Shown here in pieces: positions 28,097 to 44,220 of a stretch of 64,000 nt of DNA; the stretch's first letter is position 1, and every line of letters begins with the position of its first letter. The DNA is taken from the IMG/VR virus record IMGVR_UViG_3300042385_001265, positions 62,001 through 126,000 of that record; one strand, given 5' to 3'. Position numbers and translations under genes: made by a program. Source of the stretch: a virus. Below the pieces are notes generated by a model. It searched no databases. It was not told the DNA's origin and saw only the letters and a list, made by a program, of their open reading frames with translations.

Positions 28097-31000
28097 ATGA
28101 GTGATTTATCAAAGTTTTTAGTAGAGAGTATATTATTAGGAGAAGCGAGCAGTGTAAAGGACTTAGTTGTTGTTTACTCTGGTCGCTTTCAACCTTTTCA
28201 TAAAGGGCACTTCGCTACTTACCAAACATTAGTAAAAAAGTTTGGAAAAAATAATGTTTATATCGGAACCTCTGATAAAACAGACAATCAAAAATCCCCA
28301 TTCAATTTTAAGGAGAAAGTAAAGGTAATGACCACTATGTTTGGTATCCCATCAAACAAAATAGCTCAGGTCAAAAATCCCTATGCTCCAACTGAAATCC
28401 TAAGCAAATTCAATAAAGAAACTACTGCATTTATAACTGTGGTTGGTGAGAAAGATTCAAGTCGTTTGGGTGGGAAGTATTTTGAAAAATACAAAGATAG
28501 TATTGAATTGGAAGGATATGCTGATAGGGGGTATGTTTTTATATCACCAGCACAACCAAATGCAATTAGTGGTACTGATGTTAGGATTGGTTTAAAAAAA
28601 GGTAGTACTGAGGATAAAAAAGATTTCTTTGTAAAGAAAGCTTATGGTAAATTCAATCAATCAATTTTTGATATGGTTGTTGATAAACTTTCCAAATTAC
28701 CAGAATCAATTAATTTAGATGAAGGTATTACATTAGATGTTGAAATCGGAGATACCATTTTAATGGGTAGATTTAAAAATAAAAAAGTTATTGTAAAAAC
28801 TATTGGAAAAGATGAACATGGAATGCCAACTATCAATGGTAAAAAGGTAGCAACTTTTAGAATGATAAAGGAAGGATATCAAGTAATCTTTGAAGATGAA
28901 AATGATGATTCCAAATACACTCATATTGGACATGGTGTGTATAAACAAAAAGGTAAAGAGGATGATGAATCTTCTCCATCTTTTTCAAAGAATGATGGTG
29001 GTAAGTATGTTAAAATAGATGGAGCTAGTGATACAAAATCGGAACCATCTAAAGGAACTAAAGTAGCCGGTTCGGATATGTTTAAACATGCACCTGATGT
29101 TAAGCAAAAAGAAAAACCCAAAACTGAAATACCAAATGTTGCATTAGATAATGTAACTAAGGTATTACCAAAAGCAGATTCAGATACATTTAGTTCAGAA
29201 TCGGATATTCCTAAAATTTCAAATAAGCAACAAAGAGAAATTTCAATGCAGATTGATAAGTTGGTTCAACTAACAAATCAGGCAAAAGAAAATGGTGAAG
29301 CAGCTCCTAATTACAATTTATGTAAAATAACTGTAGCTGGAACAAACTTATATTGTGCTGGTAATGCTGGAATTCCTCGTGAGGAAATGCCACAATTTAA
29401 AGGCAAACCAACCGAAGGTTCACCTGCGGCAAGTATGGAAAAAGATATAAATGGTGAAGTTGATACGGAACCAATGTTTAGAGAACTATTGAAAAGAAAG
29501 GGTATTAAAACTATCCAAACTGAATTACCATCGGATTCTCTAAAAGCAACTCAATCTGAATTAGTTGGTGCAAAGGTAGCTGGTATGGCAAAGGCATTAG
29601 AGAATGACCCGAATCATCCAAAGATTACTGCTCCAATCTATGTAAGTAGAGATGGATATGTAGTGGATGGTCATCATCGTTGGGCAGCTGTAACAACAAA
29701 CGCAATTAGAGATGGGAAACCTGCTAATATGAAAGTTATTGTTATTGATGCCGATATAAAGGATGTGATACCAATGTCAAATAAATTTGCAGAAGAAATT
29801 GGTGTTGCTGCTAAAAAAGCAGATACTGGTAAAAACGAATCGGTAATTAACGAAATCCCAATGGCTGATTTACAACAAATTGATAAATACGCTGATAGAC
29901 AATTAAATCCAATTGATATCGTTCTTACTGATAAACATTTTTTCGATAGATTAAATGATACGAGAAATGGTAAGGAAATATCAGCAGCAGAACTAACTGG
30001 GTTCTTTAAAAGATTAGGTAGAAATAAAAAGAAATTTGTTGAATTCTTAACTCAATACAACCAAGTTGTAGCAAAGGATAATAGAACTAATATCAATATA
30101 CCATTTATGCTTCAAGCTAATAAAGCTATTGCAAAAACTATAATGAGAAAAGGTGAATTCAAAACAACAACACCTGAATATAAATTTGAATCAGTAATTG
30201 CTGAAACGTTAGACTCTCATTTGGGGAAAAAACATGGTGTGGAATTGGATGTATATGAATATCCAGAATACTTAGAAATTCACAGAATAGTTGTTCCAAA
30301 AGAAAAAAGAAGTGAGGGTATTGGTACAAAAGTAATGAATGATATTATTACTTATGCAAAGAAAACCAAAAAAGATGTATTCTTAACTCCATCATCTGAT
30401 TTTGGGGGTTCTAAGGGAAGATTAATCCAATTCTATAAATCATTCGGATTTAAAGATAATAAAGGTGGAACTAGAGATTTTAGAAGCAAAGAATCAATGA
30501 AATTGACTGTTGAAACAATCAAACATATTGATGGTAAGTGGGTGGTATATCCAAAGGATGGTGGTGATAGATTAGGAACACATGATACTAAAGAGAAAGC
30601 ACTTAAGCAATTAAGAGCAATTGAAATAAGTAAAAATGAAAATATTAATTCAAAAAATCATAAATCGGATGGTACAATAGACCATAATTTTTTACAACAT
30701 CACAAATCGGGAACATATACACCTGATATGGGATATGGTGCAGAATTGGATACAATTGATTTTGATGATAGTAAAAAAACAGAACCTGGTCATCAAACAA
30801 ATACAAAGGATACCGAAGATAAAGGATATGAAATGGTTAAAAAATCAGTAGAAGAAGCATACACTAAAGGTAATATCTTTGGTGGTAAACTTAAAATAGG
30901 TGGAGTAGCAGTTCCATTAGAAGTTGAATTGATTGGAGCTGATAATAAGAAAAAAGTATTCATTGTAAAGGTTGTTCATATTGATTCAAAGTATCATTCT

Positions 31001-32569
31001 AAATTACCATCAAATGGAATATTAGAAATACCTGCAAGAATATTCAGAACACCGGGTGGTGGTTGGTATAAAGTAAAAACCAAATCAGCATTTGAAGGAA
31101 TTGGAATGGGTTACCCAGACCAAGCATGGATTGATAAACATAAAGAAGTTCTTAAAAGATTAAGAAAGAAATTTAACGCTGAGAAATTACAATATAACGA
31201 ACCATACGCATTGGGTGGTGGGATTAGTGAAAGAGTAGAAAATGGTAAAGTAATTTGTGATAATTGTGGTTGGAGTTGGAAAATTTCTGAAGGTGGAAGT
31301 GATACCTATATGTGTCACAAATGTGGAACTGATAATAACCCAAACATAACTGAGGGGTTATTAACTGAAGGTGGTGCGTATGGACATATGAATCATCCAT
31401 TTGATACTGAAATTAACTTAACATTTGGACAACTTAAAGATATTGTGAATCGTGCATTAGAAGGTAAGTTGGAATTGACAAGAGAAAAAACTGATGGACA
31501 AGCATTAGCAATCAGTTGGGTGAATGGAAGATTAGTTGCTGCTAGAAACAAAGGACATCTAGCTAATAGAGGTGAGAAGGCATTGGATATAAATGGAGTA
31601 GCTACTAAGTTTGCCGGAAGAGGTGAGTTAGAAAAAGCATACAACTTTGCTATGAGTGATTTATCAAAAGCAATAAAATCACTTTCAGAAAAACAAAGAG
31701 AAAAAGTTTTTAAGAATGGTGCATGTTTTATGAATTTGGAGGTAATATATCCAACTTCGGTAAATGTAATTCCTTATGGACAAGCACTATTAGTATTTCA
31801 TGGAACAATGGAATATAATGAAGCTGGTATAGCAATTGGTGAAAATCAAGAAGCAGCTAAAGTTTTGGCTGGTATGATTAAGCAAGTAAATCAAAACGTA
31901 CAATCGGCTTATACAATACAAGGACCTCCAGTTGTTAAGTTACCACAATCAAAAAACTTAACTTCATTAAAAGGAAAATATAGTGGACAGATTACAAAAC
32001 TACAATCTAAGTTTAAACTATCCGATACGGATGGTATTGCTGATTATCATCAAGCATGGTGGACTGATTTTGTAACTAAGAAATCACCATCTCCGATTGA
32101 TAATAGAACTCTAATGGGATTGGTTAAGAGATGGGCATTCTATGATAAATCATTCCGTTTAGACAATAAAAACATTACCGATGCTAAAGTATTAAGTTGG
32201 GCAACTGGTATTGATAAGAATGACCACGCTAAGATAGCAAAGGATAATATTAGACCTTTTGAGGATATATTTTTGGGTGTTGGCTCTGAAGTACTTTCAT
32301 TTATGAGTTCAGTACTTACAGCAAACCCTGATTCTGCGGTTAGAGCTATGAAGGATAGATTAGATAAAACTATATCAGATGTTAAGACTGGTGGTGATGA
32401 AAAGAAGATAGCAAAACTTAAAATGGAATTACAAAGATTAAACGCTATTGGTGGAAAAGATAAAATAGTTCCAAACGAAGGTATCGTATTTGTGTACAAT
32501 GGAAATACAATGAAACTAACAGGTACATTTGCACCATTAAATCAAATTCTTGGATTATTTTACGAATAG
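28097..32569 (+). CDS. Multi-enzyme polyprotein (NMNAT-, ParB-, GNAT- and ligase-like domains)
   Basis: 1490 residues. Order: residues 17-205 nucleotidyltransferase of the NMNAT/NadM type (G29RFQPFHKGH, ISGT at 157-160); about 390-580 ParB-like fold with DGHHRW at 524-529; 587-703 a small helical domain; about 704-800 GNAT acetyltransferase (RSEGIGTKVM near 739); about 810-845 a DUF2188-like strand repeat; a zinc ribbon C1054/C1057/C1073/C1076; and 1092-1490 a ligase-like domain with K1131-T-D-G and LEVIYP. Between domains lie (L/V/I)-x-E motifs at E16, E209, E586, E703, E1086 and E1091, resembling prohead-protease sites. The likely fate is packaging and cleavage. Individual activities are unproven; the ligase call is the weakest. 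Confidence 0.75.
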   Translation: MSDLSKFLVESILLGEASSVKDLVVVYSGRFQPFHKGHFATYQTLVKKFGKNNVYIGTSDKTDNQKSPFNFKEKVKVMTTMFGIPSNKIAQVKNPYAPTEILSKFNKETTAFITVVGEKDSSRLGGKYFEKYKDSIELEGYADRGYVFISPAQPNAISGTDVRIGLKKGSTEDKKDFFVKKAYGKFNQSIFDMVVDKLSKLPESINLDEGITLDVEIGDTILMGRFKNKKVIVKTIGKDEHGMPTINGKKVATFRMIKEGYQVIFEDENDDSKYTHIGHGVYKQKGKEDDESSPSFSKNDGGKYVKIDGASDTKSEPSKGTKVAGSDMFKHAPDVKQKEKPKTEIPNVALDNVTKVLPKADSDTFSSESDIPKISNKQQREISMQIDKLVQLTNQAKENGEAAPNYNLCKITVAGTNLYCAGNAGIPREEMPQFKGKPTEGSPAASMEKDINGEVDTEPMFRELLKRKGIKTIQTELPSDSLKATQSELVGAKVAGMAKALENDPNHPKITAPIYVSRDGYVVDGHHRWAAVTTNAIRDGKPANMKVIVIDADIKDVIPMSNKFAEEIGVAAKKADTGKNESVINEIPMADLQQIDKYADRQLNPIDIVLTDKHFFDRLNDTRNGKEISAAELTGFFKRLGRNKKKFVEFLTQYNQVVAKDNRTNINIPFMLQANKAIAKTIMRKGEFKTTTPEYKFESVIAETLDSHLGKKHGVELDVYEYPEYLEIHRIVVPKEKRSEGIGTKVMNDIITYAKKTKKDVFLTPSSDFGGSKGRLIQFYKSFGFKDNKGGTRDFRSKESMKLTVETIKHIDGKWVVYPKDGGDRLGTHDTKEKALKQLRAIEISKNENINSKNHKSDGTIDHNFLQHHKSGTYTPDMGYGAELDTIDFDDSKKTEPGHQTNTKDTEDKGYEMVKKSVEEAYTKGNIFGGKLKIGGVAVPLEVELIGADNKKKVFIVKVVHIDSKYHSKLPSNGILEIPARIFRTPGGGWYKVKTKSAFEGIGMGYPDQAWIDKHKEVLKRLRKKFNAEKLQYNEPYALGGGISERVENGKVICDNCGWSWKISEGGSDTYMCHKCGTDNNPNITEGLLTEGGAYGHMNHPFDTEINLTFGQLKDIVNRALEGKLELTREKTDGQALAISWVNGRLVAARNKGHLANRGEKALDINGVATKFAGRGELEKAYNFAMSDLSKAIKSLSEKQREKVFKNGACFMNLEVIYPTSVNVIPYGQALLVFHGTMEYNEAGIAIGENQEAAKVLAGMIKQVNQNVQSAYTIQGPPVVKLPQSKNLTSLKGKYSGQITKLQSKFKLSDTDGIADYHQAWWTDFVTKKSPSPIDNRTLMGLVKRWAFYDKSFRLDNKNITDAKVLSWATGIDKNDHAKIAKDNIRPFEDIFLGVGSEVLSFMSSVLTANPDSAVRAMKDRLDKTISDVKTGGDEKKIAKLKMELQRLNAIGGKDKIVPNEGIVFVYNGNTMKLTGTFAPLNQILGLFYE

Positions 32570-32581
32570 TAAAAAATTCAA

Positions 32582-32589
32582 TACTTATA
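32582..32589 (+). promoter_or_regulatory. Late-promoter-like element TACTTATA
   Basis: Exact TACTTATA within ATACTTATATATATGA, 24 bases before the ATG at 32614; the surroundings closely match the 22861 copy. Confidence 0.5.
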
Positions 32590-32613
32590 TATATGAATAT
32601 ATAAGAACAATTT

Positions 32614-33291
32614 ATGGCTAATACAGAATTTAAGAAAAGTTTCATGCATCCAACTCGTAGAAAGTTGGCTGATATGGTTCAGACTGGTGAATACGAAAAA
32701 AATACGCAAGTTGGATTCTCTAATATAAAAGAGGAAGTTTCCAGAACCATTGGAGATATTTGGGAAGATAAAGATGGTTATCTTTGGGAACAAAAAGAAT
32801 ATGGTAGAGTAAGACAATCTAAGAGTAGTGATACCATGTCTGAAGTTAGAAATTATTTACAACAAATTTCAAGTTGTAAATCAAATGATTGTGATGTTAG
32901 TGGTAACTACTCAAATGCAGATAAGAAGTTAATTTCAAAGACTGGATATTGTGCTGGCTGTTTAGCTAGACGAGAATTTCAAATAAAACAAGATGGTTTA
33001 TGGGAAGCATATAGTGAATATAGAATTTATTCAAATATGGCAGCTTATGGTACGGATGTTTTGGAAAAATTAAACAACGCATATAAAGAGGTATCCAATA
33101 TACATGAGTATGTAAACGAAGATGGCTCAGTTGAAAGATGGCAAAATGATAAAGATGTAGAGCAGTTAAAAACTGAAATACAAAAAGATATTGATAGTGG
33201 TAAGTTGGAACTTATCGAAGTTATAGAAAAACGAAACGCAGCATATGAATTATTAAAAGATAAGAATTATGAATTGGTTTCAAAACTTTAA
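32614..33291 (+). CDS. Hypothetical protein with cysteine pairs
   Basis: 225 residues. Begins MANTEFKKSFMHPTRRKLAD; SRTIGDIWEDKDGYLWEQKE follows near residue 43. Central C-x4-C (CKSNDC) and C-x2-C (CAGC) could bind zinc. The C-terminal 70 residues are a charged helix. It lies just before the putative lysis pair and terminase, under a late-type element. No family recognised; a small virion or packaging accessory protein is possible. Confidence 0.6.
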   Translation: MANTEFKKSFMHPTRRKLADMVQTGEYEKNTQVGFSNIKEEVSRTIGDIWEDKDGYLWEQKEYGRVRQSKSSDTMSEVRNYLQQISSCKSNDCDVSGNYSNADKKLISKTGYCAGCLARREFQIKQDGLWEAYSEYRIYSNMAAYGTDVLEKLNNAYKEVSNIHEYVNEDGSVERWQNDKDVEQLKTEIQKDIDSGKLELIEVIEKRNAAYELLKDKNYELVSKL

Positions 33292-33301
33292 ATTTAATAA
33301 T

Positions 33302-33640
33302 ATGAAAGACAACAAATTGGTAATTTTATTGGTTATTATCGCAGTGTTAATAGGGTGGAGTATATTTACAACCAGCCAAATTAAAACTGATATAGCTGGC
33401 TATAATCAAAAAATTGATTCAATCCAAAAGGATATTGATTCGGTTTATACAAAAAATGATTTGATAGATACTCAAATTGATTTAGTTGATACACATATCT
33501 CTAATGTAGATAAAGATATTCAACAAGTAACAAAAAACATAACTATAATTAAAAATAATACAGATGAGAAAGTTAATAACGTTGCTACTATTGGTAACAT
33601 TGAGCTCGAGCGCTTATTCACAGAAAGATACGCTAACTAA
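33302..33640 (+). CDS. Membrane-anchored coiled-coil protein (possible spanin-like)
   Basis: 112 residues from the ATG at 33302; an upstream in-frame ATG (33269) overlaps the previous gene and adds no membrane feature. A single N-terminal membrane segment (LVILLVIIAVLIGW) is followed by a long periplasmic coiled coil with D-x-I/V repeats. The next gene begins inside it in another frame and encodes a secreted, membrane-tethered helix. That embedded layout recalls Rz/Rz1 lysis spanins, but no lipobox was seen. A holin-associated or tail-anchor role cannot be excluded. Confidence 0.6.
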   Translation: MKDNKLVILLVIIAVLIGWSIFTTSQIKTDIAGYNQKIDSIQKDIDSVYTKNDLIDTQIDLVDTHISNVDKDIQQVTKNITIIKNNTDEKVNNVATIGNIELERLFTERYAN

Positions 33641-33983
33641 GAAAGATACAAGTGTTGTAGTTTTACCAACAAAAATTGCTAGATTAGTTTATCAAGACCT
33701 AATTCGTTTTGATGGAGCTAAATTGGAGATTGTTGAATTAAATAAAACAGTATTACTTAAAGATGAACAAATAAGTTTATTTAAACAAAAGGATACTCTT
33801 AAAAACGAAAAGATTGGAAACTTAGAATTAATCATTACTAAAAAGGATGAGCAGTTTTCATTAGAGAGACAAAAATCGGAAAGTTTAATAAAAGAACTAA
33901 AAGGACAGAAGTTTAAAACTGGATTTTATAAGGTAACTTCAATTGTTGGAATAATTGCAACTACAGTCCTTTTAATAAAGTAA
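33564..33983 (+). CDS. Exported protein with C-terminal membrane helix (possible lysis partner)
   Basis: 139 residues. A signal peptide (MRKLITLLLLVTLSSSAYS, cleavage before Q) precedes a helical coiled-coil body, and a C-terminal hydrophobic segment (IVGIIATTVLLIK) would anchor it. It overlaps the preceding gene by 77 bases in a different frame. Proteins of this shape are common in Bacteroidota phages near lysis genes. No lipoprotein cysteine is present, so it is not a classical Rz1. The terminase start lies three bases after its stop. Confidence 0.6.
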   Translation: MRKLITLLLLVTLSSSAYSQKDTLTKKDTSVVVLPTKIARLVYQDLIRFDGAKLEIVELNKTVLLKDEQISLFKQKDTLKNEKIGNLELIITKKDEQFSLERQKSESLIKELKGQKFKTGFYKVTSIVGIIATTVLLIK

Positions 33984-33986
33984 TTT

Positions 33987-35573
33987 ATGGCTGAAGTAAA
34001 GAAATCATTAAAACAAATTATTGCTGAAGAATATCAAAAGTGTGCAAAAGACCCGATATACTTCATGCGAAAATATTGTATGATTCAACATCCGGTGAAA
34101 GGTAAAATACCCTTTCACCTTTTTCCGTTTCAAGAAGATACACTAACTCAGTTTAAAGACCATCGTTATAATATTATTCTAAAATCAAGACAAACTGGTA
34201 TCTCAACATTGACTGCTGGTTTCTCACTTTGGAAAATGCTATTTAATGATGATTTTAACGTATTGGTTATTGCAACAAAGCAAGAGGTTGCTAAAAACTT
34301 AGTAACTAAGGTAAGGGTTATGAATCAATATCTACCAAGTTGGTTAAAACTAACAACGGTGGAGGATAACAAATTATCACTTAGATATGCAAACGGCTCT
34401 CAAATCAAAGCAACATCTGCTGCTAGTGATGCTGGTCGTTCTGAAGCACTATCTTTATTAGTATTTGATGAGGCGGCATTTATCGATAAGATTGAAGATA
34501 TATGGGTATCTGCACAATCTACATTATCAACTGGGGGTAACGCAATTATCCTTTCTACACCAAATGGTGTTGGAAACTTTTTCCACAAAACTTGGGTAGG
34601 TTCTGAAGATGGAACAAACTCATTTAATAATATTAGAATCCATTGGAGTGTACATCCTGAAAGAGAGCAAGCTTGGCGAGATGAACAAGAGGTTCTATTA
34701 GGAACAAAGGGAGCAGCTCAAGAGTGTGATTGTGATTTCGTATCTTCTGGAGATAGTGTAATCGAACCACAACTCCTACAATTTTATAAAGAAACATTTG
34801 TGCAAGACCCAGTAGAAAAAGGTGGATTTGATGGAAACCTTTGGAGATGGGAATATCCTAACTATAATAAAACTTACATAGTATCAGCTGACGTTTCGAG
34901 GGGAGATTCTTCGGATTACTCTACCGCACACGTTATTGATGTTGAAGCATCTGCGCAAGTAGCAGAATATAGAGGTAAGTTGGATACAAAGGATTTTGGA
35001 AATTTCTTAGTATCATTAGCAACCGAATATAACAACGCACTATTGGTAATTGAAAACGCAAATATTGGTTGGGCAGCTATTCAACAAGTATTGGATAGGG
35101 GATATACTAATTTGTATTATACATCTCGAGATTTAAAATATGTGGATGTGGATAATCAATTATCAAACAAATATCGTTCGGAGGATAGAAGTATGGTAGC
35201 TGGATTCTCAACCACATCAAGAACCCGACCTTTGATTATTTCAAAGTTGGAGGAGTATGTAAGAGAAAAATCAATCATAATCCGTTCAGTAAGAACCATA
35301 GATGAGTTATTTACATTCATTTGGAACAATGGTAGAGCTGAGGCAATGCGTGGTTATAATGATGACCTTACGATGGCATTAGCCATATCACTTTGGGTTA
35401 GAGATACATCACTTAGATTAAGACAAGAGGGTATTGATTTAACAAAACAAGCTATTAACAGTATATCATCATATACTTATAGTGGTGTTTATGGTGGTAA
35501 CGATATGGATAGTAATCCTTGGCAAATGAACGTTGGGGATGGTAGTATTGAAGATTTAAGTAAATGGTTATAA
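33987..35573 (+). CDS. gp17: Terminase large subunit (T4 gp17-like)
   Basis: 528 residues. The ATPase half has a variant Walker A at S67-R-Q-T-G-I-S-T74, where the usual lysine position is Ile (a lysine sits at 66), and Walker B LLVFDEAAF (D161, E162). The nuclease half starts with SADVSRGDSSDY (D302) and continues with a conserved VIENANIGW segment. It cuts and drives concatemeric DNA into the prohead through the portal encoded next but one. No small subunit was recognised nearby. Length is somewhat shorter than T4 gp17. Confidence 0.93.
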   Translation: MAEVKKSLKQIIAEEYQKCAKDPIYFMRKYCMIQHPVKGKIPFHLFPFQEDTLTQFKDHRYNIILKSRQTGISTLTAGFSLWKMLFNDDFNVLVIATKQEVAKNLVTKVRVMNQYLPSWLKLTTVEDNKLSLRYANGSQIKATSAASDAGRSEALSLLVFDEAAFIDKIEDIWVSAQSTLSTGGNAIILSTPNGVGNFFHKTWVGSEDGTNSFNNIRIHWSVHPEREQAWRDEQEVLLGTKGAAQECDCDFVSSGDSVIEPQLLQFYKETFVQDPVEKGGFDGNLWRWEYPNYNKTYIVSADVSRGDSSDYSTAHVIDVEASAQVAEYRGKLDTKDFGNFLVSLATEYNNALLVIENANIGWAAIQQVLDRGYTNLYYTSRDLKYVDVDNQLSNKYRSEDRSMVAGFSTTSRTRPLIISKLEEYVREKSIIIRSVRTIDELFTFIWNNGRAEAMRGYNDDLTMALAISLWVRDTSLRLRQEGIDLTKQAINSISSYTYSGVYGGNDMDSNPWQMNVGDGSIEDLSKWL

Positions 35574-35598
35574 AATTATGTAAAGTTATATAAAATGA

Positions 35599-35606
35599 TA
35601 TTTATA
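35599..35606 (+). promoter_or_regulatory. Late-promoter-like element TATTTATA
   Basis: Exact TATTTATA, 28 bases before the ATG at 35635, starting the head-gene unit. Confidence 0.5.
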
Positions 35607-35634
35607 TAGTATTAGATAATATTTAGTCAAATAT

Positions 35635-36042
35635 ATGGAAAATTATACTTTAGAACTTTACAATGAAATCAGAGGCATTTTCGAAGAAGATGTTACTGAA
35701 TATTATGTTGAAAACTACGATGATTTAAAAGAATTCATAGAATTCTTAAAAACCATAAAGGGGGAAGTTAACGAAGCCGAATATCAGGGAAGAGAGGTAA
35801 AACTCAATAAACCGATGAGAGGTGATGTTAAGAAGTTTAAAGTATATGTTAACAATCCAAAAGGGAATGTTGTAAAAGTAAATTTTGGGCATGGCGGAAC
35901 ATCAGCAAAATCAGCAGGTGAAGAAACTATGAGAATTAAAAAATCAGACCCAGAACGAAGAGCATCATTTAGAGCAAGACACAATTGTGATACACCTGGT
36001 CCAAAAACAGGAGCAAGGTATTGGAGTTGTAAAGCTTGGTAA
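35635..36042 (+). CDS. Head-associated small protein with SFRARH/ARYWSC signature
   Basis: 135 residues. The N-terminal acidic helix ends at KGEVNEAEYQG, which contains a V-N-E-A site of the prohead-protease type. The C-terminal domain has a KVYVNNPKGNVVKVNFG strand pair, SDPERRASFRARH and a last segment ARYWSCKAW. I recognise this C-terminal block as a conserved T4-like phage family, sometimes fused to core proteins. It is probably a minor capsid or core component with a removable propeptide. The gene sits between terminase and portal. Confidence 0.65.
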   Translation: MENYTLELYNEIRGIFEEDVTEYYVENYDDLKEFIEFLKTIKGEVNEAEYQGREVKLNKPMRGDVKKFKVYVNNPKGNVVKVNFGHGGTSAKSAGEETMRIKKSDPERRASFRARHNCDTPGPKTGARYWSCKAW

Positions 36043-36073
36043 ATTAATAAAGGTTATAAAAACAAAAACAAAA

Positions 36074-37843
36074 ATGGCAGAACAACAACAAAGTACGTTT
36101 TTTCAAAGATTAACAAAACTCTTTTCTACTCAAGCCGTAGTCAAAATTGACAAGGATGGGAAGAGAAAAGTAGTTGATGTTGATGACAGACAGCAAGGAA
36201 GTACTAATTTATTGAACCTTAGAGATAGGTACACTAAATTACAAAGAGGATTTGCTGGTGACCAAATGGCTGCACAGTCAATGGCATACCATCAAGTTCG
36301 TAGAGAATTATTTAGAGATTATGATGCTATGGATAATGACCCGATTATATCATCGGCATTAGATATATACTCAGATGAATCTACATTAAAGAATGAATTT
36401 GGAGATGTAATTCAAATCAAAACTCAAAACGAAAAAGTAAAAGCATTATTAGAAAATCTTTTCTATGATATTTTAAATATTGAATTTAACCTATGGGCAT
36501 GGACTCGTAATATGGTTAAGTATGGTGATTTTTTCCTTTCGGTGGAAATACAACCAGGTAATGGTATTATTAATGTACAACCACTTCCAGTTTATGAAAC
36601 TGAAAGATTGGAAAATACTGACCCAAATAATCCAAACTATGTTAAGTTCAAAGTTAATCATGACCCTATTGGAAAAGGTGAATATGAGAACTATGAAGTA
36701 GTACACTTTAGATTATTATCAGATACCAACTTCTTACCTTATGGTAAGGCAATGATTGAAAATGGTAGAAGAATTTGGAAACAAGTTTCTCTTATGGAAG
36801 ATGCTATGTTAATTCATAGAATTATGAGAGCACCGGATAAGAGAGTTTTCAAAATTGATATTGGTAATATTCCACCAAACGAAGTGGATAACTACATGCA
36901 AAAGATTATCAACAAAATGAAGAAAGTTCCATTTGTTGATAAGAATAGTGGTGATTATAACTTAAAATATAATATCCAAAACTTAACTGAAGATTTCTTC
37001 TTACCTGTTAGGGGTGGTGATAGTGGTACTCAAATTGATTCATTAGGTGGATTACAATACACAGCTATTGAAGATATTGATTACTTAAAAAACAAATTGT
37101 TTGCAGCTCTTAAAATTCCAAAAGCATATTTGGGGTATGATGAGAATGTAAATGGTAAAGCAACACTTGCTGCAGAAGATGTAAGATTTGCAAGAACGAT
37201 TGAGAGAATCCAAAGAACATTGGTATCCGAACTTACTAAATTGGCAATTGTACATTTAGCATCTCAAGGTATCGAAGATGCTGATATGGTTGATTTTGAA
37301 TTATCATTGGTAAATCCATCTACAATCTATGAGCAAGAGAAAGTAAACCTTTGGAGTGAGAAAGTAAGATTAGTTTCTGATATCAATGCATTAAATATGA
37401 TTTCTAAAGATTGGGCATATGAAAATATATTCAATATGAGTAAAGATGAGGTAGACCAACAAAAAGCTGGAATGATAAATGACCTCAAAGATAGATTCAG
37501 ATATAACGCTATTGAAAACGAAGGAAATGACCCGGCAATGCCACAACAACCAACTGATATCGAAGAAAGTTTGGAAAAACTTAAAACGGAATTAAAGGAT
37601 GAAGGTGGTAGACCAAGAGAGGGTAATACTTATGGTAAAGATAAACATCCTTATGGTAGAGACCCATTAGGAGCTAAAGAAAACCAAAAAGCTCTGAAAA
37701 GAGAAAGTTCAGCGGTTAGAGTTAATGCAAATATTGCAAAAGAATACATTAACGGAATATCATCAAAAAAACAAATTATAAAAGAAAAAGTTGACTTTTT
37801 AGATGATTCAAATTTGTTAGACGAGGAAAAAATTAGTAAATAA
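36074..37843 (+). CDS. gp20: Portal protein (T4 gp20-like)
   Basis: 589 residues from the ATG at 36074; a frame-open extension back to 35987 would overlap the preceding gene and is not needed. Conserved portal features include DPIISSALDIYSDEST, NMVKYGDFFL, VVHFRLLSDTNFLPYGKAM and YLGYDENVNGKATLAAEDVR. It forms the dodecameric ring for DNA entry and neck attachment. The last 60 residues are basic and flexible. It lies upstream of core, protease, scaffold and capsid genes in T4-like order. Confidence 0.93.
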   Translation: MAEQQQSTFFQRLTKLFSTQAVVKIDKDGKRKVVDVDDRQQGSTNLLNLRDRYTKLQRGFAGDQMAAQSMAYHQVRRELFRDYDAMDNDPIISSALDIYSDESTLKNEFGDVIQIKTQNEKVKALLENLFYDILNIEFNLWAWTRNMVKYGDFFLSVEIQPGNGIINVQPLPVYETERLENTDPNNPNYVKFKVNHDPIGKGEYENYEVVHFRLLSDTNFLPYGKAMIENGRRIWKQVSLMEDAMLIHRIMRAPDKRVFKIDIGNIPPNEVDNYMQKIINKMKKVPFVDKNSGDYNLKYNIQNLTEDFFLPVRGGDSGTQIDSLGGLQYTAIEDIDYLKNKLFAALKIPKAYLGYDENVNGKATLAAEDVRFARTIERIQRTLVSELTKLAIVHLASQGIEDADMVDFELSLVNPSTIYEQEKVNLWSEKVRLVSDINALNMISKDWAYENIFNMSKDEVDQQKAGMINDLKDRFRYNAIENEGNDPAMPQQPTDIEESLEKLKTELKDEGGRPREGNTYGKDKHPYGRDPLGAKENQKALKRESSAVRVNANIAKEYINGISSKKQIIKEKVDFLDDSNLLDEEKISK

Positions 37844-37854
37844 ATTAAAACTTA

Positions 37855-37862
37855 TATTTATA
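37855..37862 (+). promoter_or_regulatory. Late-promoter-like element TATTTATA
   Basis: Exact TATTTATA after the portal stop; 48 bases before the ATG at 37911. Confidence 0.45.
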
Positions 37863-37910
37863 CACAATGATTACATCGTTTATGAATATATTATTATAGG
37901 ACAAAAATAA

Positions 37911-38789
37911 ATGAAGAAGGTAAAACATTCGAAATTTAAGAACACAGGTATTCTATTTGAACTTCTTGTAAGGCAAATTACATTAGAAGTGCTTAATGGA
38001 GATGCGACTGAAAAAGCAAAGCATATTGTTAGAGAATTCTTTTCACCAAAAACTGAATTGAATAAAGAACATAGATTATATGAACTCTTACTAAAGGAGA
38101 AATATAAGTCAGAATCCAGAGCTGAAAAATTTATTGATACAATCAATGAAGCGCATACCCGTATCAATCAAAGTAAATTACAAAGAGAAAAATATAATCT
38201 TATTAAGAAGATTAATGAATCATTCGATATGGATGATTTCTTATCATCTCCAATAACTAACTATAAAGTATTAGCATCAATATATAAAGTATTTGAAGCT
38301 AAGAATATGGTAGATTATGATGTTAAAGATATTTTTAATTCTAAAATTACTTTAATTGAAAATATAACATCGAATCAAACAGTAATTGTAGAAAAATCAG
38401 ATGATGCTCAGAAATTAGTAGAATCTTATAAAAAACAAGATAAAGATTTAAGATTACTTACCTACAAAATATTAGTAGAAACGTTTAATAAAAAATATTC
38501 TAATTTAGATGAAAGTCAAAAAGAATTATTAAAGCAGTTTATTAATAATATTACCAATACTACTAAATTTAAAGAATACGTTGAGAAGGAAATTCCATCA
38601 ATAGTAAAAGAATTAAAAGTATTACATAAGTCTATCAATGACAAAGTTACTAAAATTAAATTAGCTGAGACTGTATCTGTTTTAAATAAAACTAAAATTG
38701 GTAAGACTGTTTCTGATAATCACGTATCATCATTAATGATATCATACGAATTAATTAAAGAACTAAAGGGTAGATTAAATGACAAGTAA
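37911..38789 (+). CDS. Helical protein, possible prohead core component
   Basis: 292 residues, mostly helical and lysine/glutamate-rich. The N-terminus MKKVKHSKFKNTGILFELLV is distinctive, with LLVRQITLEVLNGD after it. No catalytic motif. It occupies the place of T4 gp67/gp68 core genes between portal and protease and ends overlapping the next gene by 11 bases. A core or initiator role is inferred from position only. Confidence 0.55.
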   Translation: MKKVKHSKFKNTGILFELLVRQITLEVLNGDATEKAKHIVREFFSPKTELNKEHRLYELLLKEKYKSESRAEKFIDTINEAHTRINQSKLQREKYNLIKKINESFDMDDFLSSPITNYKVLASIYKVFEAKNMVDYDVKDIFNSKITLIENITSNQTVIVEKSDDAQKLVESYKKQDKDLRLLTYKILVETFNKKYSNLDESQKELLKQFINNITNTTKFKEYVEKEIPSIVKELKVLHKSINDKVTKIKLAETVSVLNKTKIGKTVSDNHVSSLMISYELIKELKGRLNDK

Positions 38790-39228
38790 ACTAAGAGAAC
38801 TAATTGATGAACTTTTAGAAGAGATTCAGCAAGAGGAGTTAGAGTTAGGTGAAGCAACAACAACTGGTGATGTAGCTGGATACAATACTCCCAATGCATT
38901 CAAAGCAACGGATGGTACTGATGAAGAAGCTGAACCAGATGATGCAATTACAAAAAGAATAAATCAATCAACTGGATATAAAAAAGTTGATGAAAATCGT
39001 TGGCATGAATTAAGAAAAGATGAATCCTCTCCAAAACAAAAAATTGGTAGAGGAATTTCTAATGTTAATAGACAACTTTCTGAAATCGAAACATTCCTTG
39101 GTTGGTATGGTAAGATTAAAAATGAAGGTGATTTAAACTCTGACCAATATTGGAAAAGAACTAAATCAAACTTATTCAGAATAAGAGAGAGATTAAACAA
39201 TATTGCTACATCAATTAGCAAACTATAA
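38779..39228 (+). CDS. Head-internal protein with propeptide-like N-terminus
   Basis: 149 residues. The acidic N-terminal helix LRELIDELLEEIQQEELELG is followed by E25-A26, an L-G-E|A site of the prohead protease type. After it comes EATTTGDVAGYNTPNAF, a sequence I have seen in other T4-like head-associated proteins. The C-terminal domain is helical. It is translationally coupled to the previous gene. Role unknown; processing inferred. Confidence 0.6.
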   Translation: MTSKLRELIDELLEEIQQEELELGEATTTGDVAGYNTPNAFKATDGTDEEAEPDDAITKRINQSTGYKKVDENRWHELRKDESSPKQKIGRGISNVNRQLSEIETFLGWYGKIKNEGDLNSDQYWKRTKSNLFRIRERLNNIATSISKL

Positions 39229-39243
39229 TAGGAAACCTATACT

Positions 39244-40347
39244 ATGAATATTACTAGAGCAAAACTAAAAGAAACACTTCGTACAATCGTTAATGAGGAA
39301 TCGGAGTATCAATCATTTTTCAAAGCCGCATTAGAAAAAGCTGGAAAATCTATCCCATCTATGAGTGATGAGGAAAAGAAAGCATTTTTTGATAAAATCG
39401 ATGCCACATGGGATGGTAGAGGTGAAAAGAATGAAGAATTAGTTGGTGGTCAAAAGAAATTAGATGTTGATAAAGATGGTGATATCGGTAGTGATGATTT
39501 AGCAGATTTAAGAGCTGGTAAAAAAGTAGATGAAGCATCATATCCAACTGATTTAAAAATCGGTTCTGTAATATTAGGACAAGGATTCACCCGATTAAAG
39601 GGAATAGATGGTGGGAAGTATTATAAAGTTGTAGATATGGATAGTATTTCAGCAACATTCGTTCCATCTGATAAAAATGGTAATACAAAGGGTTCAAAAA
39701 AAGTAAGACATCGTTTAGGTGATATTGATGGTGGTATTAAAACTGCTAAAAGAGGTGATGAAAACGGAATCGTTGTAATCAAAGAATCAGTTAACGAAGC
39801 AATTGGTAATGATAAATCAATGTTAGCATTGGTAGATATATTATCCAACTCAATGGAATATTATGAGGATGATAGTGATTTTTTACAAGCAGTTAGAGGT
39901 GGACAAGGATGGTCTGGTATTGCAGGTTTTAAAAATAGTAGTTTAATTCCGGTATTTAAATCTATATATAAAAAGTATTGGACAGTATCTCCACAAAATA
40001 GAACTAATTGGATTACAAAAAATTGGATTAATTGGTTAAAGCCATTTGGATTGGAAGAGAATGTAAATTCTGAAACTGATACATTTAATGAAGCAGCAGA
40101 CGTTAAAAAAAGATTTATGTTTGATTTCTATACGGATTCCAATCAAAGAAATACCGAAAGAGAAACAAACTTTTTGGCTACTACATTGGAAAGCGCAATT
40201 AAAGCAGCTGAACATATTTGTAAAGTAACTGGATATGCGTATGTTGAAATATACTACAAAGATTTGTTTTTAGGTAGTATGAAAAAACAAAATGGTTTTA
40301 AATTTGTTGAGGGTAGGGGCTATCCTAAATTCAAATCAATAAATTAA
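39244..40347 (+). CDS. Head-internal polyprotein with EF-hand-like loop
   Basis: 367 residues in several small pieces. Residues 1-97 include SMSDEEKKAFFDKIDATWDG and an EF-hand/dockerin-like loop DVDKDGDIGSDDL. Sites V-D-E97|A, V-N-E185|A and F-N-E283|A separate three further pieces: a beta domain with KIGSVILGQGFTRL, a helical domain and a C-terminal alpha/beta domain. ESVNE precedes the second cut. It sits directly before the protease. I infer it is packaged in the core and cut into separate small proteins; functions unknown. Confidence 0.6.
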   Translation: MNITRAKLKETLRTIVNEESEYQSFFKAALEKAGKSIPSMSDEEKKAFFDKIDATWDGRGEKNEELVGGQKKLDVDKDGDIGSDDLADLRAGKKVDEASYPTDLKIGSVILGQGFTRLKGIDGGKYYKVVDMDSISATFVPSDKNGNTKGSKKVRHRLGDIDGGIKTAKRGDENGIVVIKESVNEAIGNDKSMLALVDILSNSMEYYEDDSDFLQAVRGGQGWSGIAGFKNSSLIPVFKSIYKKYWTVSPQNRTNWITKNWINWLKPFGLEENVNSETDTFNEAADVKKRFMFDFYTDSNQRNTERETNFLATTLESAIKAAEHICKVTGYAYVEIYYKDLFLGSMKKQNGFKFVEGRGYPKFKSIN

Positions 40348-40372
40348 TCCATAAATAATAAGAGGAGCAGAT

Positions 40373-40960
40373 ATGAAAAGCTTAATAATAGAAACGAATT
40401 TGTTTAAGGGATTAGTTAACGAAGATGCCTCTGGTAGAACTATCGTTAAAGGAATCCTACAAAGAGCTGGGGCGGAAAACCAAAATGGTAGAGTATATCC
40501 AATGCCAATCTTACAAAGAGAAGCAAAGAGATATGAAACACTTATCAAAGAAAGACGAGCATTAGGTGAATTAGACCACCCTGATTCGTCTGTAATCAAC
40601 TTGAAGAACGTATCTCATAATGTGAGAGAAATTCATTGGGAAGGTAATGATTTATGTGGTACAGTTGAAATCTTACCAACACCATCTGGAAACATATTAA
40701 AAGAATTGTTAAGAGCTGGAATCCTATTAGGTATCTCATCAAGAGGTATGGGTTCTACTAGACAATTAGAAGGAAATAAAGTAGAAGTTCAAGAGGACTT
40801 TGAATTAATCGGTTGGGATTTTGTTTCCAATCCATCTACGCATGGTGCATTTATGACACCTATGAACGAATCGGTAGTTAAATCTATTGGTACTGATGTT
40901 TGTGGTGAATTTTGTAAAGCACAAGATTTAATGAGAGAAATCATAACAGGATTAATATAA
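40373..40960 (+). CDS. gp21: Prohead core protease (T4 gp21-like)
   Basis: 195 residues. ALGELDHPDSS carries the catalytic histidine (H69), and ISSRGMGS carries the serine (S122 or S123), the fold of the gp21/herpes-assemblin serine proteases. Substrates would be scaffold, core and capsid proteins after (I/L/V)-x-E. A good Shine-Dalgarno (AGAGGAG) lies just before the ATG, unusual for this genome. The stop overlaps the next ATG (TAATG). Confidence 0.9.
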   Translation: MKSLIIETNLFKGLVNEDASGRTIVKGILQRAGAENQNGRVYPMPILQREAKRYETLIKERRALGELDHPDSSVINLKNVSHNVREIHWEGNDLCGTVEILPTPSGNILKELLRAGILLGISSRGMGSTRQLEGNKVEVQEDFELIGWDFVSNPSTHGAFMTPMNESVVKSIGTDVCGEFCKAQDLMREIITGLI

Positions 40961-41508
40961 TGAGCAAGAAAAACTTTGACATATACGATTATGTAACAAA
41001 TAACACCTTTACTTTAAAAGTAGAACAAAAGGGTGGTAATAACGTATCTAAGGGATATAATGATATTCGTAAAACCAATATCAATGAAGTAAAAATAGTT
41101 AATGGTAAATTCAGTATAGCTGAATCATTAGAAGATAATAGACCATTATCAAACGAAGTTAAAAAACACTTCTTAGAAATTATTTCAACTTATAAAACAT
41201 TCCAAGAGCAAATGAAAAGAAATTCAGATATCGTTGAGGTAGCTGAAACTTTGGGTGGAATCGTAGAAGCTGCTAAAACCCTAACACTTTCTGAAGCTGA
41301 TGATTGGTTTGATAAAGTAACCATCAAAAGAAATATGAGTGAGTTAGATAAAATGGATAAAGCATTTGAAAAGGTTGCAACTGAAGCAAGACAGTTAGAT
41401 GAGAGATTACATTCACTTTATGAAGATATGGGTAACATATTAAATAGATACTATGAAATTTCTGATTTAGATGGTGAAATTGTAAAAGAACGTTTAGGAA
41501 AAAAATAA
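40960..41508 (+). CDS. Helical core-associated protein
   Basis: 182 residues. Begins MSKKNFDIYDYVTNNTFTLK; the second half is helical and charged. TLTLSEADDWFDKVTIKRNM contains an L-S-E-A site and is a patch seen in phage core proteins. It is coupled to the protease and to the following polyprotein. T4 places scaffold next to the protease, but the acidic scaffold here is two genes further on. Probably a second core protein. Confidence 0.55.
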   Translation: MSKKNFDIYDYVTNNTFTLKVEQKGGNNVSKGYNDIRKTNINEVKIVNGKFSIAESLEDNRPLSNEVKKHFLEIISTYKTFQEQMKRNSDIVEVAETLGGIVEAAKTLTLSEADDWFDKVTIKRNMSELDKMDKAFEKVATEARQLDERLHSLYEDMGNILNRYYEISDLDGEIVKERLGKK

Positions 41509-41510
41509 TT

Positions 41511-42647
41511 ATGAAAGAGCAATTAAGAAAAATAGTAAGAGAAACTATGAAAGAATCAGTTCTTTCAGAAATAGAATCAGTAAACGAAGGAAGATACGAT
41601 GCTGATTTAGATAAAATTGAAGCAGCAGTTAAAAACGCATCATCATTTATGAACGTTGGTTCTGAATTAAAGAAAATTGGTGTAAAGTATGATTTCTCAA
41701 CTTCAATGATACCGATGTATAGAATTAAAGTATCTGGAAACACTATTGCAATTGTAAATAAGAAATATGCAGCTGGTGCAGAAAGAGAAGTTAAAGATAT
41801 TGCAATTGGATTAATGGAGAATATTATTAAAGAATCGTTATCTCCTGAAGTTGCTAAACATATGGGTAGTATTCATAAGGGATTTAAAATGGTAGAAGAT
41901 GATGGTGCAATGGTTTATGATTCACCAAACAATGCTAAAAAAGCAGCAGATTTTTTAAATTCAAAAAAAATAGCAGCATCATTTGATGGTAAATATGTAT
42001 ATTTAGAATCAGTAGTAACTGAGGCATTCAAACATATCATTCACGTTGATACACCAACTCAAGTAGTTTCTAAACCAGTAGCAGCTCAAATAATGGCATT
42101 GGCTAAAAAAGGTATTCGTTCAAAAGAAATTGGATTGGAGATGGGATTTACTGGTAACGCTAAGTTAGCAGCTGATACATTCCAAAAAGTTAAAAGTAGA
42201 ATATACTTTGAGCTTGATAAAAGAGAATCAGTAGTAACTGAAGGTGCTGGTAAAGAAGCAATGGGAATTGCAGCATTAACTGCTACAAGAGGTGATGCGG
42301 TTCAAGCCTTTATTGATAAACATAATTTGGATGGTGTAAAACTTTTCAAAAGTATTAAATCAGCAAACTTGCAAGGTAAAATGAATTTTGTTAGTGCATT
42401 GGTTGGACACGATGGTAATCCAAATCAAAGACTTACAATCAAACTTCACCAAAAGAATGAATCGGTAAATGAAGAAGAAATTAGATGGAGCGCAGTTGAA
42501 AATGCAATCATTAACTTTTTAAAAATGAATACAAAGATTTTAGATAAGAGAGTTAAAGATAAAGATACTGATGGTGTTAAGGGGGGATTGCAATCAATCA
42601 TTGATGGTTTAACCAACGCACAAAGAAGTTTAAAATTAAAAAAATAA
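41511..42647 (+). CDS. Head-internal polyprotein with ESVxxE linkers
   Basis: 378 residues. The same kind of linker recurs: ESVNE26|G, ESVVTE171|A, ESVVTE244|G and ESVNE321|E. The pieces between them are a 27-171 alpha/beta domain, a helix-turn-helix-like 172-244 piece (KKGIRSKEIGLEMGFTGNAK), a 245-321 piece and a helical tail. Starts two bases after the previous stop. Linker regularity implies designed cleavage by the nearby protease. Functions of pieces unknown. Confidence 0.6.
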   Translation: MKEQLRKIVRETMKESVLSEIESVNEGRYDADLDKIEAAVKNASSFMNVGSELKKIGVKYDFSTSMIPMYRIKVSGNTIAIVNKKYAAGAEREVKDIAIGLMENIIKESLSPEVAKHMGSIHKGFKMVEDDGAMVYDSPNNAKKAADFLNSKKIAASFDGKYVYLESVVTEAFKHIIHVDTPTQVVSKPVAAQIMALAKKGIRSKEIGLEMGFTGNAKLAADTFQKVKSRIYFELDKRESVVTEGAGKEAMGIAALTATRGDAVQAFIDKHNLDGVKLFKSIKSANLQGKMNFVSALVGHDGNPNQRLTIKLHQKNESVNEEEIRWSAVENAIINFLKMNTKILDKRVKDKDTDGVKGGLQSIIDGLTNAQRSLKLKK

Positions 42648-43197: not shown

Positions 43198-44220
43198 ATG
43201 GCAAATTCAAAATTGTTAAAAGAAGCAATTGCTGATGCCAAGGCTGTAAGGGAAACCGCTATCGCTAACGCTAAAATCGCATTAGAGGAAGCTTTTACTC
43301 CACGTTTACAATCTATCCTATCAAGAAAGCTACAAGCTGAAATGGAAGGTGAAGAGGAAGAAACTATGGAAGAAGAGATGGACTCAATGGATTTAGACAT
43401 GGGTGATGACGAAGAACAAACTGCTATGGTAAGCAATGAAGAAGAAGCTACTGATGTTGTTGAAGAAGAGGAAACAGAAATGGACTCTGAAGAAGCAATG
43501 GAAGAAGCTGAAGGGTATGATGACCCGACTAACGCTGATGACGCATCAATGTCTGAAGAAGATGAGATGGGTGAAGATGAGTTAGATTTAGAAGAAATCA
43601 TCAGAGAACTTGAAATGGGTATGGACTCTGAAGAAGAGGAAGTAACTGAAGAAGAAGAAATGGAAATTGCTCCCGAAGAAGCTCCTGTAGCTGAAGAGGA
43701 AGAAATGGAAATGGGTTCTGAAGAAGAAGCTCCTGTATCTGAAGAAGAAGATGAAATCGACTTAGAGGAAATCCTTAGAGAAATGGGTTACGGGGATGAT
43801 GAGGAAGTAACTGAAGGTGAAGAAGAAGTTGTTGATAACTCTGCAGAATTAGAAGCAGAATTAGAAGAAGCTTATTCAGTAATCAAAAAATTACAATCTA
43901 CAATCAACGAAGTAAACTTATTGAACGCAAAATTACTTTACGCTAACAAATTGTTTAGAGGTTATAATTTAACTAACGAGCAAAAAGGTAAAGTTGTAGA
44001 AAATCTTGACAGAACAACTTCTGTTAGAGAAGTAAAATTAGTTTTCGCAACGTTATCAGAATCAATGAACTTTACAGGTACTGAAAGAAAAGCTAAAAGA
44101 GCAATCGCTGAAAGCGTAGCATCTAAGCCAACTCGTTCAACTGCACCTAAGAAAGAAATCATTTCTGAGAACACAAATCTAATGGCTGCAAGATTCAAAG
44201 AACTTGCAAACATTAAATAA
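43198..44220 (+). CDS. gp22: Prohead core scaffold (T4 gp22-like)
   Basis: 340 residues. Basic helical N-terminus, then about 180 residues of extremely glutamate/aspartate-rich sequence, then a helical C-terminus with LLNAKLLYANKLFR and EQKGKVVENLDRTTSVREVK, which is the conserved end of gp22-type scaffolds. Acts as internal core and is degraded by the gp21-like protease. The acidic middle has repeated EEEEMEMGSEEEAPV-type units. Expressed with the capsid gene from a structured leader. Confidence 0.85.
   Translation: MANSKLLKEAIADAKAVRETAIANAKIALEEAFTPRLQSILSRKLQAEMEGEEEETMEEEMDSMDLDMGDDEEQTAMVSNEEEATDVVEEEETEMDSEEAMEEAEGYDDPTNADDASMSEEDEMGEDELDLEEIIRELEMGMDSEEEEVTEEEEMEIAPEEAPVAEEEEMEMGSEEEAPVSEEEDEIDLEEILREMGYGDDEEVTEGEEEVVDNSAELEAELEEAYSVIKKLQSTINEVNLLNAKLLYANKLFRGYNLTNEQKGKVVENLDRTTSVREVKLVFATLSESMNFTGTERKAKRAIAESVASKPTRSTAPKKEIISENTNLMAARFKELANIK

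Follow-up and report, generated by a model that had tools for sequence, protein, structure and literature searches.

What are the short, nearly identical linkers that recur in three genes around the head genes of a T4-like virus, and are the proteins that carry them cut apart at these points? The question is raised by a window of 64,000 bases (bases 62001-126000 of the 168,635-base virus record IMGVR_UViG_3300042385_001265; the features listed below between 28097 and 45899 lie on its + strand, and genes are named by their first base). PHROG and Pfam matches place in it a T4-like head cluster, with terminase (33987), portal (35987), prohead protease (40373-40960) and capsid (44259) genes. The 39244 gene lies just 5' of the protease gene, the 41511 gene lies between the protease gene and a scaffold-position gene (43198), and the 28097 gene is found three open reading frames (ORFs) upstream of the terminase. 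A preliminary description of this DNA had proposed that the products of these genes are packaged polyproteins cut at glutamate linkers by the prohead protease. Comparison among relatives shows modular chains, a standard linker with a protease-like constraint, a seam with breakpoints at its edges, and proximity to head genes. On this basis the proteins are probably head-packaged polyproteins that a gp21-type protease cuts apart, the linker being at the same time an in-frame seam through which cassettes recombine; cutting, packaging and injection are what we infer.

Shuffle counts had been suggested as a check, and in the window alone they turned out weak. The plain glutamate motif ([ILVMF]xE[AGS] in the comparisons below) occurs 7 times in the 28097 protein against 3.39 expected from shuffles (P 0.047), 4 times in the 39244 protein against 0.89 (P 0.007) and 3 times in the 41511 protein against 1.16 (P 0.10). 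Moreover, it is not specific there, with 6 cases against 2.23 expected in the SbcCD-like 10643 protein and 5 against 1.24 in the 23230 protein. For the longer word ES[VI]x1-2E, counted in ORFs of at least 100 aa, eight of the ten cases in the window fall in the 28097, 39244 and 41511 proteins, and a single one occurs in the 22,127 aa of such ORFs in four 20-kb stretches elsewhere in the record.

Among relatives, and with a longer composite word, the same kind of count gave strong enrichment. The viral loci analyzed were the best 80 of 599 confirmed for the protease gene, the best 80 of 594 confirmed for the ligase-like module of the 28097 protein, and 14 for one module of the 41511 protein; these sets overlap, as they include the same contigs, and the counts are neither complete nor random samples. 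Proteins, those of the window included, were classed by synteny or best match, with redundancy removed at 90% identity and a separate class for eight truncated fragments of 28097. The composite linker ES[VI]x1-2E[AGS] was found 166 times in six linker-bearing classes, against approximately 2 expected from composition-matched shuffles: 33 in 65 proteins of slot 1 (28097; 0.6 expected), 46 in 65 of slot 2 (39244; 0.4) and 32 in 49 of slot 3 (41511; 0.4), while 16 other homologues have 28 between them (0.1), the 64 proteins of the 38779 family have 16 (0.3) and the 42 of the 35635 family have 11 (0.1). None was detected in terminase (35 representatives), portal (34), 32614 (61), 37911 (43), major capsid protein (MCP; 21), scaffold-position (29) or protease (25) proteins, nor in the remaining classes examined, truncated 28097 fragments included; the 14055 family has 2, and 23230 and 40960 have 1 each. 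Over shuffles, the plain motif shows a 1.5- to 4.1-fold excess in the linker classes and in the capsid, scaffold-position, protease, 40960 and 37911 classes, and is below expectation in terminase, portal and 32614 (0.71-0.78). Overall, 147 dereplicated ORFs carry two to six linkers, which suggests that a single gene may give rise to several products.

The residues around the proposed cut (marked here by an arrow) vary in the way that a protease site would. In contexts aligned on the ligase-like module, the junction has E at P1, G at P1' and G at P2' in 61 of 61 cases each. P3 is occupied by L or I in all but one of the 61 (an X), while P2 varies over at least eight residues. Likewise, 55 distinct upstream contexts of the phrog_7595 junction all have E at P1, and 96% have A at P1'. 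These junctions carry the substrate pattern of T4 gp21-type proteases, L/I-x-E, often before A or G, with V at P3 in many linkers. Where the DNA word differs the protein-level pattern is kept, as in ESLLLE↓GG, VNE↓AEYQG and others. The constraint on junction residues thus supports a fit to cleavage after L/I-x-E before A, G or S. Early sites, taken as motifs ending at residues 4-35, point in the same direction: they are present in 18/18 MCPs, 22/24 scaffold-position proteins and 21/24 proteases, in 32 of 40 complete 28097 homologues (4.2 expected), in 34 of 63 members of the 38779 family (8.7 expected), in 12/41 of the 35635 family and in 15/49 slot-3 proteins, and in 0/34 terminases and 1/28 portals. 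The site LLDE↓A that the preliminary description had noted in the capsid protein was confirmed at E61 (44430-44441), where it is a candidate maturation site; the 21 capsid homologue N-termini listed have a similar site at the corresponding place, most of them reading LLDE↓A and three LISE↓A, IVSE↓A or LVSE↓A.

The proteins are also assembled differently from phage to phage. Homologues of the 28097, 39244 and 41511 proteins are differing combinations of modules that are compact and recurrent between phages. The order of the modules varies, and the same module can be found now in the 39244 gene, now in the 41511 gene. With breakpoints taken at identity of at least 75% and with at least two supporting pairs, homology breaks lie within 6 residues of the motif for 90 of 254 module ends (null 0.084) and 122 of 291 module starts (null 0.081). 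Control families gave 2 breaks under this rule, none at the motif, and 0/70 and 0/49 at 60% identity. A looser test that counts every weak end of a high-scoring segment pair gave 434/2078 and 416/1971 within 5 residues (null 0.08), a diluted enrichment. In nucleotide alignments of at least 92% identity, the edge of the seam is the boundary in 51/288 and 81/280 internal ends (null 0.018). Homology between relatives often starts or stops at seam edges, and therefore cassettes have been exchanged there. The claim that the linkers fall between domains thus stands in evolutionary terms, but the structure model adds little to it: the 41511 model is poor, with a mean predicted local distance difference test score (pLDDT) of 57 and one confident domain at approximately residues 251-310, and its sole informative dip is at residues 318-323, where pLDDT falls below 50 at the E321 linker between better-predicted stretches.

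ESVNE is a DNA seam as well, which, together with the shuffling, had gone unnoticed in the preliminary description. A total of 110 ESVNE occurrences with enough flank, their contexts clustered at 5 of 12 identical residues, gave 62 upstream contexts, 68 downstream contexts and 98 distinct junctions, and in 55 of the 98 the modal word is the 15-mer GAATCAGTAAACGAA. Exact copies of this 15-mer in the overlapping locus set are in frame in 96 of 96 cases, with 0 on the other strand. The per-position information profile of the seam is high by construction, as sites were picked for encoding ESVNE, with third positions and the serine codon being informative; the DNA claim therefore rests on codon skew, exact-word searches and nucleotide breakpoints. 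The codons are indeed skewed: AAC is used at 0.73 against 0.45 in other NE contexts, TCA at 0.77 against 0.35, and GTA at 0.94 against 0.63. One ORF, in locus L209, holds six identical seam copies 192-333 bases apart. Across the whole record from which the window comes, there are 3 forward copies of the degenerate seam, all within the 39244 and 41511 genes, and 0 reverse ones.

Searches with exact words extended this to larger collections. The 17-mer GAATCAGTAAACGAAGC has at least 138 occurrences in 118 loci of viral contigs; 137 of the 138 listed are in the longest frame, at least 106 occurrences are in ORFs with two or more linkers, and 99 of the 118 listed loci have a relative of a T4-like head gene. 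A synonymous 17-mer, which overall codon use predicts to be roughly as frequent as the seam, was found in 35 stretches in the whole collection, 24 of them in frame and 5 in multi-linker ORFs. In cellular genomes, the seam 17-mer occurs 45 times, of which 25 are in frame, 2 are in multi-linker ORFs and 0 of 45 are beside a T4-like head gene. Of the 35 loci with the synonymous word, nine have T4-like head genes. Eight of these nine are distant, with a protease 40-63% identical where the locus extends to it, and encode about five different proteins with ESVNE in other codons; having been found by searching those codons, they speak for existence and not for rate.

Regarding the enzymes that the preliminary description had named, which fall in the 28097 protein, the labels held to different degrees. 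The NMNAT/cytidylyltransferase-like domain at residues 26-163 (28172-28585) is well supported (Pfam PF01467, E 4.4e-8), but the GNAT-like module at approximately residues 710-801 (30224-30499) is below the Pfam cut-off (Acetyltransf_7, E 4.8e-5), and the ParB-like and ligase-like matches are weak. The first of the latter is in a phrog_2859-like region (phrog_2159, E 0.0017). The GNAT-like module resembles a segment of giant DarB-like proteins in Serratia phage Parlo and Pseudomonas phage Skulduggery. A further module, residues 589-698 (29861-30190), is found in other architectures in T4-like phages of Flavobacterium, Methylophilales and Sinorhizobium; no packaging evidence was found for its relatives in phiM12 and Melnitz. 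The putative RNA-ligase-like module, residues 1092-1490 (31370-32569), has EKxDG invariant in 32 of 32 aligned rows, and its model is good (pLDDT 85). In Foldseek, the 12 best matches to it are without exception RNA or DNA ligases, at weak scores (best E 0.033, TM-score 0.15; best VIA Z 4.7, root-mean-square deviation 3.8 over 90 residues). Several of these structural alignments begin two residues past the EKxDG lysine, at chain positions 94 and 101, which are two after the residues whose mutants are titled K92A and K99M; K92 and K99 are presumably the nucleotidyl lysines of the matched ligases. A profile search of solved structures with the same module gave as best match the ribosomal protein eS6 (E 0.019), which is not credible. 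An RNA repair enzyme carried in the head would be unusual. In Pfam scans that included 60 of the 147 multi-linker proteins, most modules match no named family; among these 60, DUF3008 appeared in four members and eight other families in one each. In these scans, in which most modules have no family, no peptidase was detected in the 28097, 39244 and 41511 proteins at E 0.1, or among the 60 multi-linker proteins at E 0.001.

Altogether, we propose that T4-like phages may load part of their head contents as polyproteins. The genes concerned, in and beside the head cluster, are 28097, 39244 and 41511, joined in relatives by 38779 and 35635. Each product would begin with an entry segment and continue as small modules strung together by ESVNE-type linkers. 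These chains would be targeted to the prohead core, where the gp21-type protease would cut after the linker glutamate in the same reaction that trims the capsid, and the freed modules would remain in the head and be delivered with the DNA. One seam would thus have two roles, as a protease site in the protein and a recombination joint in the DNA, and therefore an incoming cassette would be in frame and cleavable on arrival.

Other explanations have to be weighed against this. The one with most to recommend it, albeit unlikely in our judgment, is that the chains are prohead core or scaffold proteins like T4 gp67 and gp68, cut into pieces that are mostly expelled, and that their fast shuffling reflects relaxed constraint on a filler. 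In T4 the core genes sit between the portal and capsid genes, and the 39244 and 41511 genes occupy just such a place, flanking the S77 protease. The lack of a named family for most modules would suit a filler too, and T4 core proteins are described as being cut to many fragments that mostly leave the head (PMC9026906, in the part available). The enzyme-like domains of the 28097 protein and its invariant EKxDG would be needless in a filler, however, and the compactness of the modules and their recurrence between phages also argue against it. It is also conceivable, though rather improbable, that the linker does no more than provide flexibility and a place to recombine, at which modules are exchanged and the protein is never cut. 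The skewed choice of AAC, TCA and GTA in ESVNE would be accounted for in this way, but not the persistence of the protein pattern with other DNA words, nor the occurrence of ESVNE in other codons in distant T4-like phages, even if these were found by searching for those codons. Moreover, fixed P1 and P1' with a variable P2 is the pattern of a protease site and resembles the capsid site. Finally, helical proteins rich in E, S, A and G could hold such words by chance, with no shared cause. The window-alone P values of 0.007 to 0.10 and the equal scores of some unrelated proteins would allow this, but the composition-matched shuffles over relatives, and the in-frame occurrence of the exact 17-mer in 137 of 138 listed viral cases against 25 of 45 cellular ones, leave it scarcely credible.

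Several results weigh against the proposal of head-packaged, protease-cut polyproteins itself. The plain motif is also elevated in 23230 (1.86), 54238 (2.12), 26913 (1.74), 27712 (1.70) and 55843 (1.66), and for this reason is not diagnostic alone; z-scores for such enrichments overstate it, because relatives share ancestry and are not independent. Slot-2 proteins have early A/G/S-type sites at chance level (10/65 against 10.0 expected), and no early site beyond chance was found in 37911 (0/41) and 40960 (3/26), though the plain motif is enriched there. At one module start that recurs, P3 is a lysine in each of the 7 contexts, which read KNE↓G or KHE↓G. Even at identity of at least 75%, 58-65% of breakpoints are more than 6 residues from the motif, and the enrichment at the motif weakens under looser rules; degenerate linkers and fuzzy alignment ends are likely a partial account of the breaks off the motif. 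The synonymous 17-mer is about 4-fold less likely than the seam by dipeptide context; as the control is at most about 4-fold rarer on this count, the gap between at least 106 and 5 occurrences in multi-linker ORFs exceeds the codon-use effect. In addition, the open-access literature yielded no virion proteomics of such phages.

How does the proposed system relate to known ones? The genes of the T4 core proteins gp67/gp68 and gp22 have a genomic position similar to that of 39244 and 41511, and to our knowledge these proteins neither exchange modules between genes nor share a standard linker. They too are cut to multiple fragments by the protease, according to the available part of PMC9026906. 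The same part describes gp21 as cutting after L/I-x-E and cleaved leaders as targeting T4 head cargo. Like the T4 internal head proteins (IPI-III, Alt), the proteins studied here have a gp21-type protease nearby, L/I-x-E sites, in some classes early N-terminal sites, and a place close to the head genes; T4 cargo is described there as one protein per gene with a leader, Alt having also a C-terminal cut, whereas here many modules per chain share a repeated linker. Head proteins of phiKZ and SPN3US, which are cut after E by distant gp21 homologues (gp175/gp245), some of them at several sites, and form a large injected load, would be similar in these respects. In the available portion of PMC10052503, 13 of 14 SPN3US sites are in N-terminal propeptides and one is C-terminal, and no site is described as lying between the modules of a chain.

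Polyvalent proteins (Iyer et al. 2017) are likewise multi-domain, encoded near late genes, mosaic in their combinations, and endowed with GNAT and ParB-like domains (PMC5512222, in the part available). The two to fifteen domains per polypeptide near late genes that define them are found in the present proteins as well. Their authors liken them to polyproteins and, in the same available text, credit release to embedded peptidase domains, unlike the cutter proposed here, which would work in trans, being the head maturation protease with a standard linker as its target. Among the P1 antirestriction proteins (DarA, DarB, DdrB), which are large and head-packaged, DarB enters the head by its N-terminus, and in the accessible part of PMC9024508 the Dar proteins are not described as chains of small shuffled modules. 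The likeness to them here is in the GNAT-like module of the 28097 protein, which matches DarB-like proteins.

Mobile regulatory cassettes named PeSL, with promoter-terminator motifs, reportedly mediate modular shuffling in T4-type phages (work attributed to Arbiol in 2010 and Comeau in 2014). The seam resembles them as a short conserved DNA element tied to modular shuffling in T4-like genomes; unlike a promoter-terminator, it is coding and lies in frame within long ORFs. General domain mosaicism of phage proteins has also been described, the word 'linker' being absent from the main text of PMC10684548 as far as that text was available. Among titles and the opening lines of abstracts in the open-access literature, there was no earlier description of such linkers. 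Each known system covers one part; their combination, in which a coding seam would serve as joint and as cut site, was not found in this literature.

Whether the seam amounts to a natural in-frame assembly standard is, to us, an evenly balanced matter. In such a standard, a 15-bp coding seam would be recombination joint and cut site, and an acquired cassette would be expressed, packaged, freed and probably injected, so that phages would take their injected effectors from a pool open to exchange, and a single promoter and a single targeting segment would keep copy numbers matched. All this bears on the load that T4-like heads hold in addition to DNA, and on the way in which it diversifies. If true, virus-like polyproteins would exist in tailed phages as a cargo system, beyond structural precursors, and the renewal of head cargo with frame and packaging kept would be explained. 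There would also be a simple rule to find many unknown small, probably injected proteins, by dividing chains at their ESVNE-type seams, and protein delivery would have a linker and a loading signal ready for use.

As for the individual sites in the window, all 16 glutamates named in the preliminary description (15 in five proteins and capsid E61) are present where it placed them. Its rule, (L/I/V/F)-x-E-(A/G), holds for 13 of them but not for E586 (followed by I), E703 (followed by T) and E321 of the 41511 protein (followed by E). These P1' exceptions are not fatal, because T4 gp21 is described as cutting after L/I-x-E (available part of PMC9026906). The predicted 28097 polyprotein (28097-32569, 1490 aa) has an N-terminal site SILLGE↓A (E16; 28127-28147), with SILLE↓A, TILGE↓A and similar in homologues, followed by candidate linkers ESINLDE↓G (E209; 28703-28723), ESVINE↓I (E586; 29837-29854) and ESVIAE↓T (E703; 30188-30205), recognized by motif, and a double linker NITE↓GLLTE↓ (E1086 and E1091; 31343-31369), located 5' of the ligase-like module by homologue alignment. 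Its modules are NMNAT-like, phrog_2859/ParB-like, a T4-superfamily module, GNAT-like, zinc-ribbon-like and RNA-ligase-like.

The putative 367-aa polyprotein encoded directly before the protease (39244-40347), whose homologues differ in module content, carries KVDE↓A (E97; 39523-39534) and TFNE↓A (E283; 40081-40092), assigned by motif, and the seam GAATCAGTTAACGAA, encoding ESVNE↓A (E185; 39784-39798), assigned by motif and DNA word. Slot-2 proteins of loci L016, L017 and L022 contain recurrent cysteine-rich mini-modules (e.g., CGCGCGG), bounded by VTE↓G or beside ESVNE↓S. The 378-aa putative polyprotein of approximately five small modules, between the protease and the scaffold position (41511-42647), has two seams recognized by motif and DNA word, GAATCAGTAAACGAA for ESVNE↓G (E26; 41574-41588) and GAATCGGTAAATGAA for ESVNE↓E (E321; 42459-42473), and by motif the linkers ESVVTE↓A (E171; 42006-42023) and ESVVTE↓G (E244; 42225-42242). 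Two smaller proteins carry sites near the N-terminus. The 135-aa protein (35635-36042) consists of a 47-aa leader ending in the site EVNE↓A (E47; 35764-35775; motif and junction alignment) and a phrog_7595 module, known by PHROG match, that forms the C-terminal part of some long ESVNE polyproteins in relatives. The 149-aa head-core-position protein (38779-39228) has ELGE↓A (E25; 38842-38853; motif), and comparison of relatives shows ESVNE-bounded modules inserted in this slot in some of them.

The proposed cutter is a Peptidase_S77 prohead protease of T4 gp21 type (40373-40960; Pfam E 2e-25, phrog_207 E 1.7e-50), and the MCP is of T4 gp23 type (44259-45899; phrog_138 E 5.5e-72). Between them, the scaffold-position protein (43198-44220), assigned by position and motif, has an early LxE↓A site and gave no match in the PHROG profile search. 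Phage records contained no near match to the 15-kb stretch in question, and protein searches of them with 39244, 41511 and a six-linker protein gave no match. Flavobacterium phage vB_FspM_immuto, a phage of Flavobacterium sp. LMO8, has in the stretch covered a single ESVNE seam and several LxE↓A/G sites in proteins of the head cluster. In this phage (L087, 14955-16196), approximately 55 residues bordered by LxE-type sites are duplicated in tandem in the gene that precedes the capsid gene. In Microcystis phage Mel-JY01 (L086, 13149-13376), a gene annotated as ribosomal protein S21 is the second after the prohead protease, within the head cluster. Elsewhere in the window, the ORF at 14055-22424 (2789 aa) has no annotation here; 19 ORFs of the set match it, itself included, and 11 dereplicated members together have two composite words. 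A single 1043-aa ORF at 10643-13774 matches SbcD-like (residues 2-359) and SbcC-like (277-1042) PHROGs, and appears to be a gp47-gp46 fusion.

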